Assembly: GCA_001920415.1 (NCBI GenBank)
Contig: MNJR01000064.1
Coordinates: 1 to 64,000 of the forward strand
Direction of reading: 5' to 3'
From: Acidobacteria bacterium 13_1_20CM_3_53_8
GTDB lineage: Bacteria > Acidobacteriota > Blastocatellia > Pyrinomonadales > Pyrinomonadaceae
DNA length: 64,000 nucleotides
Position 1 is the stretch's first letter, and every line of letters begins with the position of its first letter. Under the pieces are notes generated by a model that saw nothing but the letters and a program-made list of their open reading frames with translations, was not told the origin of the DNA and ran no database searches. The position numbers were made by a program, and so were the translations under genes. This document shows positions 42,416 through 44,990 of the stretch, piece after piece.

Positions 42416-42691
42416 ATGGAGTTTGAGTGGGACGAAGCAAAACGTAGATTGAATCTCCATAATCATGGCATTGATTTCGTTGGAATCGAACAGGTATTTC
42501 AGAGAGAGACGGTCACAATTCTTGATGATCGCTTCGATTATGGCGAAGAACGCTTTGTCACGTTCGGATTGCTCAATGGTCGCGTGGTAGCGATTGCCCA
42601 TACAGAGACCGACGAAGTGATACGCATTATCTCCGTGAGAAAGGCTACGAAATATGAAGAAAGCAGCTACTTCAAAGAGATCTCGGACTGA
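42416..42691 (+). CDS. brnT: BrnT-family toxin
   Basis: 91 residues, a RelE-like ribonuclease fold. Typical start MEFEWDEAKRRLNLHNHGID (1-20), then FVTFGLLNGRVVAIAHTE (about 47-64) and RIISVRKATKYEES (about 70-83), as in BrnT. It should cleave RNA when free and is blocked by BrnA. Its 3' end overlaps brnA by 38 bp. A putative direct-repeat operator covers the promoter, consistent with autoregulation by the complex. Confidence 0.9.
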   Translation: MEFEWDEAKRRLNLHNHGIDFVGIEQVFQRETVTILDDRFDYGEERFVTFGLLNGRVVAIAHTETDEVIRIISVRKATKYEESSYFKEISD

Positions 42692-42932
42692 CTGGAAGCG
42701 CGTAGATGCGCTGAAGGATGAGGACATTGATCTCTCCGATATACCGGAAGTGTCTCCAGAGATGTTTGCACGGGCAATAGTGCGACGGGGCTTGAAGCCA
42801 GTGCCACGTAAAGCACAGTTGACGTTGCGCGTGGACAGTGATGTGCTGAACTGGTTCAGAAAGCAAGGGCAAGGCTATCAGACGAAGATTAATGCATTGC
42901 TAAGGGCATATATGGAGGCGCATAAAGCATAG
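42654..42932 (+). CDS. brnA: BrnA-family antitoxin
   Basis: 92 residues with the BrnA signature at the C-terminus: KAQLTLRVDSDVLNWFRKQG (about 59-78), followed by GYQTKINALLRAYMEAHK, a ribbon-helix-helix DNA-binding module. The N-terminal acidic segment wraps the toxin (DLSDIPEVSPEMF). Start ATG lies within brnT, giving a 38-bp overlap. The complex should repress the promoter at 42381. Confidence 0.9.
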   Translation: MKKAATSKRSRTDWKRVDALKDEDIDLSDIPEVSPEMFARAIVRRGLKPVPRKAQLTLRVDSDVLNWFRKQGQGYQTKINALLRAYMEAHKA

Positions 42933-43008: not shown

Positions 43009-43446
43009 ATGAATCTTGTTCTTCTCGTTCCACTGCTAATTACAACTATCGTTGCTATCTTAAGTTGGATAGTAGCACATCGCTTGACTGCTAAACGTGA
43101 GATTGCTGGCAAACGGCGTGAGTTGAGAGTCAAATATTTGATTGATGCTTATCGGCAGCTTGAAAGTGTTGGTAATCGAGAACTCTCTAGCAAGTGGTCA
43201 GAAGTGTTAGAGTCTGCAATCGCAGACATTCAATTACTCGGAACACCGAAGCAGGTTGAAATGGCGAAACGTTTTGCAGATGATTTTGCAAAGAATCGAG
43301 CTGCGTCGTTTGATGAATTGCTCTTTGACCTTCGGGAGACATTGCGTATCGAACTTCAATTAGAGCCAGTAGAATCTAATATAGTGTTCTTAAGAATCAG
43401 TCAAACGCAATCTAATAATCCATTATTCGAGCGGATGCGGCGATAG
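43009..43446 (+). CDS. Small protein with N-terminal membrane anchor, unknown
   Basis: 145 residues. A single membrane helix (about 3-23, LVLLVPLLITTIVAILSWIV) is followed by a helical, charged cytoplasmic domain. GAGGTGAT and GGAG lie close to the ATG. Base composition is lower in GC than the flanking genes, like the genes in 31916-33413, hinting at transfer. Family unknown; similar small anchored helical proteins occur in accessory regions, but I cannot name one. Confidence 0.7.
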   Translation: MNLVLLVPLLITTIVAILSWIVAHRLTAKREIAGKRRELRVKYLIDAYRQLESVGNRELSSKWSEVLESAIADIQLLGTPKQVEMAKRFADDFAKNRAASFDELLFDLRETLRIELQLEPVESNIVFLRISQTQSNNPLFERMRR

Positions 43447-43505
43447 CTTCCCCAGATAATGATTACTCGCGTGCAGTATTCCGACGCTAATAGCCCAAAA
43501 TGAAA

Positions 43506-43939
43506 TTGCGCTGCATCCACCGAAGTGAAAGCAGCGCAACCTCATAATTCCTCTGAAATCGCCCGAAAGCGACTCGGGGAATAAGTTGGCGACAATGCAT
43601 GTACACGCTTATTGTCGCCGGTTTGTATCCCGAAGCGTGACTGGCGGTCAGTCAACCTCCGGTCGGCACGCGGTCTGTTTTCACGAATCTTGCGATCCCT
43701 TTCCACAAACCTCGCATTCTTTTTAGGGAATGCGGTGCCGTTTGGTTTTTGTTGTGGTGGCTTTTCCTCCACCGCCGGTTACGTCCCCGGCAACGAGGCT
43801 CAAAGGTCGAAACCCTTGAGCGACTTCGGCTCCCCTCCGTCGGGTCCTTCTCGGAAGGGTGCATTCGGTTTTTATCCCGAATGCTTAGTGGAAGTTTTGC
43901 AACCTCCACACAGCCCAAGCCTTTCGGCTTCAGCGAGAG
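43506..43939. ncRNA. Candidate large structured RNA (strand uncertain)
   Basis: Over about 430 bp without a convincing gene, at least nine hairpins follow one another: TTGCGCTGC/GCAGCGCAA (43506-43514/43531-43539), GGCGACAAT/ATTGTCGCC (43588-43596/43611-43619), GACTG/CAGTC (43639/43649), CGCATTC/GAATGCG (43713/43728), GGTGG/CCACC (43756/43769), GCTCAA/TTGAGC (43798/43816), CCTTC/GAAGG (43846/43854), GCATTCGG/CCGAATGC (43861/43877), GTGGAAGTT/AACCTCCAC (43888/43901), AAGCC/GGCTT (43917/43926). This density is unlike the surrounding repeats, which have long period-7 arms. It is not RNase P RNA or tmRNA (their core motifs are absent). An IscB/HEARO-type omega RNA is one untested possibility. The strand is inferred as plus only because some reading frames there fail. 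Confidence 0.55.
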
Positions 43940-44158
43940 GTGTTATAAGTAGAGCGAACCGCTCCGCTTCACTTCTCAAGCGATATGTTACCACATCGCA
44001 GCCTATCCTCTTGCTGGTCACAATGCCCGTGAGCGTCGTAACGTGCTGCGTGTTATACGCGCGCTCATCAGACAAGTCAAGCAGAAAATACTTTAACTTT
44101 TTTAGGTTTTTGTGACATGTGCCTGTGGAAAAATCTGTGGAAATCTTTCGTCCATTTT

Positions 44159-44842
44159 TTATCTGATGACAGGCAAAACTTTGCGCTGATGAGAACTCGA
44201 TTTGAAATTTAATTGACGCGCACTATACGCAGAAAATTTTTTATTTTTTAGTTCTTGACTGCTCCACTCGCGCTCTAATTTTTTCAACTCAACGCCGTCT
44301 GACTCTGGATCAACGAGCGTGAGCCAGACAGGAAGCGGCAGCCAAGCCCACGCCGCGCCGTAAATTTCAATATTCAATTTTTCGACGTGATGCTCTGTTC
44401 TGGTTTGCAACGAAAGAGGCGGCAAATCCTCCCAGTTTTCATAACAGGCGTGCTGTATGCACGGTGCTGGCTTGGCTCGACGGTGAACCAGACAGCCGAA
44501 TTTACGGGAGAAAAGCGGGCAGGAATAGGTTTGTTGAAAAGTGTCGCCCGTTGCGCTCAAGCTATAACGCTTGACCGTTTCCCGCGCTCGGCTATAAACC
44601 TCGCGCTTCTCTTCACAGGTCAGGCGAGGCGTGCGCGCTATAGTCTCACGAATCGCTACGGCTTCTAATCGTGTGATGTTAACGTTAACGAAATGCGCGT
44701 CCGTGCAGCACGAGCCGCGCGCAGGGCACGAGCGGCAGTCCTTGGCCGCTTGCTCGTAATTTAATTTAATGAATGTCTGGTAAGAGGCTTTTAGACGCTG
44801 CAATTGCGCTAGCGCCTCCGCCTCGCTTCGCCTGCTTATCAT
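44159..44842 (-). CDS. YkgJ-type cysteine-cluster protein
   Basis: 227 residues from the Met at MISRRSE, a position that avoids an N-terminal extension made partly of repeat sequence; the longer form is possible. Cysteines fall in CRSCPARGSCCTD (about 36-48), then CPLFSRKFGCLVHRRAKPAPC (about 107-127, as in YkgJ/Fe-S or zinc clusters). The family is thought to bind a metal cluster; function not established. Minus strand, just downstream of tlyA. Confidence 0.75.
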   Translation of the reverse strand: MISRRSEAEALAQLQRLKASYQTFIKLNYEQAAKDCRSCPARGSCCTDAHFVNVNITRLEAVAIRETIARTPRLTCEEKREVYSRARETVKRYSLSATGDTFQQTYSCPLFSRKFGCLVHRRAKPAPCIQHACYENWEDLPPLSLQTRTEHHVEKLNIEIYGAAWAWLPLPVWLTLVDPESDGVELKKLEREWSSQELKNKKFSAYSARQLNFKSSSHQRKVLPVIR

Positions 44843-44904
44843 TTGAAACTCTCGCGTTGGCTTCACGGCTAAATCCAAGCATGCTGGATTGGCGCGCGCG
44901 AGCC

Positions 44905-44990
44905 ATAAGTGATCCACGCGCATCACACGAAGCCGCACGAAACTGATTGAGTTTTCTTCGTGTCGTTTAGTGTGGCTTCGTGGATCATCT
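44905..44990. repeat. Inverted repeat, CACGAAGC / GCTTCGTG type
   Basis: TGATCCACG...CACACGAAGCC...CACGAA faces a complement ending in GTGTGGCTTCGTGGATCA. The tlyA TGA stop sits at its right edge. Built of 8-9 bp near-tandem units, so probably a further member of the same class of elements. Confidence 0.65.

Follow-up and report, generated by a model that had tools for sequence, protein, structure and literature searches.

A minus-strand gene for a structured noncoding RNA of ~550 nt underlies a hairpin-rich stretch of the window, the window being the whole 64,000 nucleotides of DNA that were analyzed. A sequence-only reading of this DNA had noticed consecutive hairpins at 43506-43939 and proposed a candidate large RNA, possibly an orphan. 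The hairpins are present, including GGCGACAAT/ATTGTCGCC (43588-43619) and GCATTCGG/CCGAATGC (43862-43884), and they fold beyond shuffled sequences. The interval had to be extended, given that it lacks the 5' fifth of the RNA and the promoter; the whole unit spans ~44045 to 43497. The proposal itself is borne out by covariation, by a conserved promoter and terminator, and by occurrence in at least 82 genomes. The features of the gene and its control region, including putative binding sites of DnaA, which initiates chromosome replication, are as follows in 5' to 3' order.

44136-44144, minus strand: DnaA-box-like site ATTTCCACA with one mismatch, 3 bp from the box below and forming with it a tandem 'double box'
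44124-44132, minus strand: DnaA box TTTTCCACA, an exact match to TTWTNCACA, with a position upstream of the promoter that is conserved in homologues
44075-44080, minus strand: -35 element TTGACT
44052-44057, minus strand: -10 element TATAAC, 17 bp from the -35 element
43497-44045, minus strand: structured noncoding RNA gene, from the predicted start site to the end of the terminator T-run (ends predicted, unmapped)
44017-44042, minus strand: helix 1, the 5' hairpin, with two-sided changes in 6 of 9 pairs
43931-44016, minus strand: helix 2, in which 44016-44007 pairs with 43940-43931, with two-sided changes in 7 of 9 pairs
43917-43930, minus strand: hairpin GAAGCCGAAAGGCTT with an invariant GAAA tetraloop, 100% of cells paired
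43890-43907, minus strand: hairpin GGAGGTT/AACTTCC, with two-sided changes in 6 of 6 main pairs
43861-43884, minus strand: hairpin GCATTCGG/CCGAATGC with the near-invariant loop GATAAAAAC
43833-43859, minus strand: hairpin CCCTTCCG/CGGAGGG, with two-sided changes in 5 of 8 pairs
43798-43821, minus strand: hairpin GCTCAA/TTGAGC, with two-sided changes in 5 of 6 pairs, 98.5% paired
43734-43803, minus strand: most conserved core, a three-way junction GTT[CCGGGGACGTAACCGG][GGTGGAGGAAAAGCCACC]..AAC followed by the A-rich ACAACAAAAACC
43664-43740, minus strand: helix CGGCAC/GTGCCG, which closes a length-variable domain, with two-sided changes in 3 of 7 pairs
43630-43662, minus strand: helix CCGGAGG.../...TTCGGG with an inner ACCGCC loop
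43588-43619, minus strand: hairpin GGCGACAAT/ATTGTCGCC with a conserved apical UGUACA palindrome
43549-43581, minus strand: hairpin with apical GTCGCTTTCGGGCGA; two-sided changes in 4 of 4 apical pairs, outer part weak in alignment A1
43497-43544, minus strand: hairpin of the intrinsic terminator, together with its TTTCATTTT tail; 17 of 19 pairs show two-sided changes

Computation shows that the RNA has a fold of about 18-20 helices, which selection has maintained. When positions 43480-43960 were compared with dinucleotide shuffles, the z-score was -8.80 on the minus strand against -5.35 on the plus strand, which corrects the strand of the earlier reading; on either strand, none of 100 shuffles folded as well as the native sequence. 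The minus strand has an unusually well-defined minimum-energy structure, with an ensemble frequency of 0.001 for 481 nt and a centroid that is almost the same. RNAalifold predicted 100 pairs on alignment A1, which comprises 22 full-length sequences, and 70 of these pairs have compensatory changes. A consensus structure was also derived from 67 sequences and then counted on the 22 of A1, where 83.7% of cells are paired and two-sided changes occur in 92 of the 138 pairs. Two-sided changes fill 410 cells, compared with a mean of 150.7 (sd 11.9) after shuffling and at most 182 when partners were slid. The structure came from overlapping sequences and the slid control on paired cells is therefore biased in its favor; the counts of two-sided changes are the stronger argument. 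APC-corrected covariation, calculated from the 67 sequences, independently peaks at the same helices.

Several parts of the fold are conserved in sequence as well as in pairing. Helix 2 encloses two more helices and so forms a 5' multibranch domain (43931-44016). The core at 43734-43803 retains 85-95% identity across genera by blastn, contains many invariant columns, and is the basis of covariance model R1. Hardly any variation occurs in the loops GATAAAAAC and GATACAAA or in the GAAA tetraloop. The UGUACA loop of the 43588-43619 hairpin is self-complementary, with wobbles allowed, in all but five of 67 rows, and the changed forms UGCGCA and UUGGCCAA still are; the palindrome has been lost in one subclade, and in most rows it is simply identical. 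This largely kept self-complementarity of an apical loop hints at dimerization of the RNA. One homologue (L021 / L083, on G001:C185) is shorter by ~115 nt in its 3' half, where the hairpin with the palindromic loop is missing, and keeps the promoter, core, and terminator; this represents either a natural deletion or an assembly error.

Both predicted ends of the RNA are conserved among homologues. The sequence TTGACT-17-TATAAC constitutes a sigma-70-type promoter, and the RNA is predicted to start near 44045 on the basis of these elements (44080-44075 and 44057-44052) and the 17 bp between them. Promoter scores of at least 9/12 were obtained in 61 of 65 loci, compared with ~12% of shuffles. 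At the 3' end, a long hairpin (43544-43501) overlaps TTTCATTTT at 43505-43497, and the terminator is kept in all full-length alignment rows. A strict terminator scan was positive in 28 of 64 loci and 3 of 320 shuffles; it misses the terminator of the window itself, where the T-run is interrupted, and the alignment was therefore used as evidence instead. A terminator-like hairpin, GATTGCGCTGC...GCAGCGCAGTTTCGTTTT, also occurs in a genome that does not have the RNA (L026, G004:C136:4945-4990), so this type of terminator may be a repeated element in the family. As this match comprises the hairpin only, it was excluded as a homologue of the RNA.

In everything searched, the RNA family is restricted to the Pyrinomonadaceae, a family of soil and water bacteria. 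Searches with blastn detected the RNA in 24 of 36 other genomes of the same family (23 if the terminator-only match is scored as absent) and in none of 23 genomes from other families of the same class. A covariance model of the core, 149 positions long, detected it in 82 of 119 Pyrinomonadaceae genomes at 112-162 bits, with nothing weaker, normally as one copy per genome, and in 0 of 43 sister-family genomes added by a class search. The RNA is not essential to the Pyrinomonadaceae, as it is missing from the remaining 37 of the 119. When 84,980 species were scanned for an exact pattern, 73 stretches matched, of which 71 are titled Acidobacteriota (Pyrinomonadaceae, Blastocatellia, 'gp4') and one only 'bacterium'; a match in Nocardioidaceae (L109) is due to chance, having no homology beyond the pattern. 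Covariation and conservation in relatives, on which the sequence-only reading had staked its proposal, were thus both found.

Some occurrences depart from this distribution. Two matches each were found in genomes G006 and G130. The G006 pair lies near contig ends. The G130 copies (G130:C215:9050-9192 and G130:C157:6587-6730) are divergent and the genome has 5% contamination, which leaves contamination or a real duplication as explanations. Phage and plasmid collections gave no match to the RNA. Two IMG/VR contigs of 3.5 and 4.1 kb that are filed as viral (L131 and L132) carry the RNA core; on its 5' side, both look chimeric or as if the sequence had been replaced, and they are probably mis-binned bacterial DNA.

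The neighbors of the RNA gene are common within subclades and different between them, which argues for vertical inheritance of a free-standing chromosomal gene. In the clade of the window, they are a TlyA-like S4-FtsJ protein (methyltransferase) and an NAD kinase. Other clades have L27 upstream and/or Obg downstream of the RNA, as named by reading the protein sequences. With neighbors varying among subclades, there is no conserved partner gene. The toxin-antitoxin pair that had been noticed nearby is BrnT/BrnA, which adjoins the RNA gene at 42416-42932 and is not common to other clades. The names 'membrane protein' (43009-43446) and 'ykgJ' (44159-44938) were not confirmed, neither gene having a Pfam match at E 0.001.

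The family is apparently undescribed. The Rfam scan that had been suggested, including the HEARO (IscB omega RNA) model RF02033, matched no family, whether run strictly (gathering cut-offs) on the window or permissively on the region and 20 homologues; the covariance models of OLE, GOLLD, and ROOL likewise gave no match in the window, the region, or the homologues. The RNA is not a 'missing' housekeeping RNA, as RNase P, 6S, and tmRNA were located at G000:C146, G000:C33 (a match slightly below the cut-off), and G000:C75. Acido-1 (RF01686) and Acido-Lenti-1 (RF01687) are candidate noncoding RNAs of Acidobacteria (PMC2864571) and in this respect comparable; their Rfam models do not match this RNA. 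No noncoding RNA of Pyrinomonadaceae was described in the full-text literature searched, which included few subscription journals. That the family is real, with its structure and membership secure, we regard as practically certain.

DnaA control of the RNA promoter appears likely from the motifs upstream of it, an array absent from the sequence-only reading. Boxes of the form TTWTNCACA number 1.87 per 370 bp upstream of the core, compared with 0.014 elsewhere in the same loci. At least one box is present at 46 of 64 loci against 2 of 501 random 210-bp stretches, and at least two at 35 of 64 against 0 of 501, although the loci are phylogenetically related and these counts are not independent events. 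The boxes are arranged regularly: 110 lie on the same strand as opposed to 5 on the opposite one, a start-to-start distance of 12 bp, equivalent to a 3-bp gap, is the most frequent (25 cases), and the arrays lie ~45-170 bp upstream of the -35 element. E. coli DnaA prefers, and binds in vivo, double boxes 2-3 bp apart (PMC11317965), a spacing that the tandem boxes at the RNA promoters match. Among 11 whole genomes, there are 25 exact box pairs within 30 bp, comprising 13 at dnaA, 7 at the RNA, and 5 scattered. In G002 and G029, there are no boxes at the RNA and no such pair at dnaA either. The scattered pairs (G013:C6:3463, G000:C94:16416, G060:C2:383285, G094:C9:294535, G101:C1:46992) are in non-recurrent places, with one upstream of a 294-aa gene resembling hslO, and are possible further DnaA targets.

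DnaA control is not universal, given that one group of genera has no boxes. In these (L094, L101, L102, L104, L108, L111, L112, L120-L122), a nearly invariant AAAATAAAACACACAAAAA abuts the -35 element instead, so that control of the RNA has been rewired between clades. The box-bearing clade has another conserved element, AACTTAAAGTATTTTCTACTTGAC, placed between the boxes and the -35 element (L006-L009, L013-L018, and similar loci); this is perhaps an UP element or the site of another regulator. A location at oriC is not supported, as dnaA is on other contigs and has its own box cluster in G000, and the GC skew of the window makes no sharp turn. In six of seven genomes, unpaired segments of the RNA paired with the translation start of dnaA no better than shuffles did; the one genome that beat its shuffles was treated as noise.

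Some explanations of the locus conflict with its structure and distribution. Chance or GC-driven hairpins, or an unrecognized protein gene, can draw on the open frames of up to 167 aa that overlap the region (e.g. 43612-44115, plus strand). The indels of homologues relative to the window (126, 1035, and 481 of length 0, 1, and 2 modulo 3) break any such frame and leave no conserved one in the region, so a protein-coding gene was rejected, in agreement with the view of the sequence-only reading that no frame is credible. With covariation far above the shuffled and slid controls and a fold z-score of -8.8, both forms of this explanation are already refuted, and the probability that we leave to them is negligible. 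A cis-acting leader, 3' UTR, or attenuator of a neighboring gene would suit the position of the RNA between genes, but is highly improbable for a unit with its own promoter and terminator and with downstream genes that vary in identity and orientation among homologues. We judge equally improbable the association with mobile elements that had been proposed from the sequence (HEARO/IscB omega RNA, GOLLD), whether the RNA is taken as the omega RNA of IscB/IsrB, a TnpB guide RNA, a group II intron, or GOLLD/ROOL. Such RNAs are similar in size and hairpin density, yet the association fails on every feature tested. Rfam offers no match in the window or the 20 homologues. No iscB or isrB is adjacent to the RNA, where the window has BrnT/BrnA, the S4-FtsJ methyltransferase, NAD kinase, and unassigned genes, and no IscB/IsrB, other nuclease, reverse transcriptase, or transposase was recognized among the neighbors examined. 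The RNA is normally single-copy with clade-wise synteny, and it is absent from the phage and plasmid sets.

Two other explanations turn on the DnaA boxes. The locus might be a DNA-level site for DnaA titration or reactivation, as are datA and DARS of E. coli, that merely adjoins an unrelated RNA gene. Dense same-strand boxes outside oriC fit this, whereas their fixed distance just upstream of a conserved promoter does not; moreover, the adjoining sequence evolves as an RNA structure, so that the boxes would be explained and the RNA would not. We consider this very unlikely. A weightier alternative, still doubtful in our estimation, is that this is a housekeeping or stress RNA (a ribozyme, ribonucleoprotein scaffold, or protein sponge) for which the boxes are one interchangeable promoter input and whose function is unrelated to replication. 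It is favored by the retention of the RNA while its control region was rewired between clades, and by the separate presence of 6S, tmRNA, and RNase P, which implies that this RNA has a role of its own. Against it, these genomes have few other pairs of DnaA boxes away from dnaA, and in the clades without boxes at the RNA (G002, G029) the pair is missing from the whole genome; this suggests that the RNA and DnaA are specifically linked.

The reading that we prefer, and think probable, is that the structured RNA acts in trans and that DnaA couples its transcription to the initiation of replication. In most lineages, DnaA would bind the tandem array upstream of the -35 element and control the promoter, as the box arrangement strongly suggests. 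Activation or looping seems more plausible than simple occlusion, because the boxes lie so far upstream of the -35 element. RNA output would then follow the level or ATP-state of DnaA, and hence replication initiation or growth rate. The RNA may act in trans as a folded molecule, either a scaffold or a ribonucleoprotein and perhaps a dimer, and not in the manner of a short antisense RNA, since conservation is strongest at junctions and A-rich loops within a rigid fold. A bolder version, which we advance as speculation and hold to be unlikely, is that DnaA turns on a large ornate RNA around initiation and that this RNA, dimerizing through its palindromic loop, is a cell-cycle RNA or ribonucleoprotein machine.

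Parallels exist for parts of this proposal. OLE, GOLLD, and ROOL are large ornate bacterial RNAs (PMC12286853), and OLE, at about 600 nt (PMC9723947), is similar in length to the RNA described here. Like them, this is a stand-alone large RNA with many helices, conserved loops, and a function not obvious from its neighbors; unlike them, it matches no Rfam model and has a DnaA-box promoter in most lineages. CcnA of Caulobacter crescentus has its gene within oriC, and CtrA is its presumed activator (PMC8959179). It too is a noncoding RNA with transcription tied to a regulator of replication and the cell cycle, a tie that in our case is to DnaA and putative; this RNA differs in being away from dnaA, in having DnaA boxes, and in its large rigid fold. 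In Sinorhizobium meliloti, the small RNA EcpR1 is induced by stress, acts in trans, and is linked to cell-cycle control (PMC4414408), whereas this RNA is large and folded and has no convincing pairing to dnaA. Promoters of the E. coli DnaA regulon share the tandem boxes 2-3 bp apart beside the promoter (PMC11317965). Here, by contrast, the target is a large noncoding RNA, the organisms are Acidobacteriota, and the DnaA sites are putative.

Rfam has no entry for this large covarying RNA family, which occurs in dozens of species from a family that is abundant in soil. Away from the dnaA region, these genomes contain very few pairs of DnaA boxes, and the promoter of the RNA carries one of them. 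Whether the replication initiator controls such an RNA, and what part the RNA plays in the cell cycle, is a testable question. If the bolder version above is true, this RNA would be, to our knowledge, the first large structured one to be assigned to control by the replication initiator.
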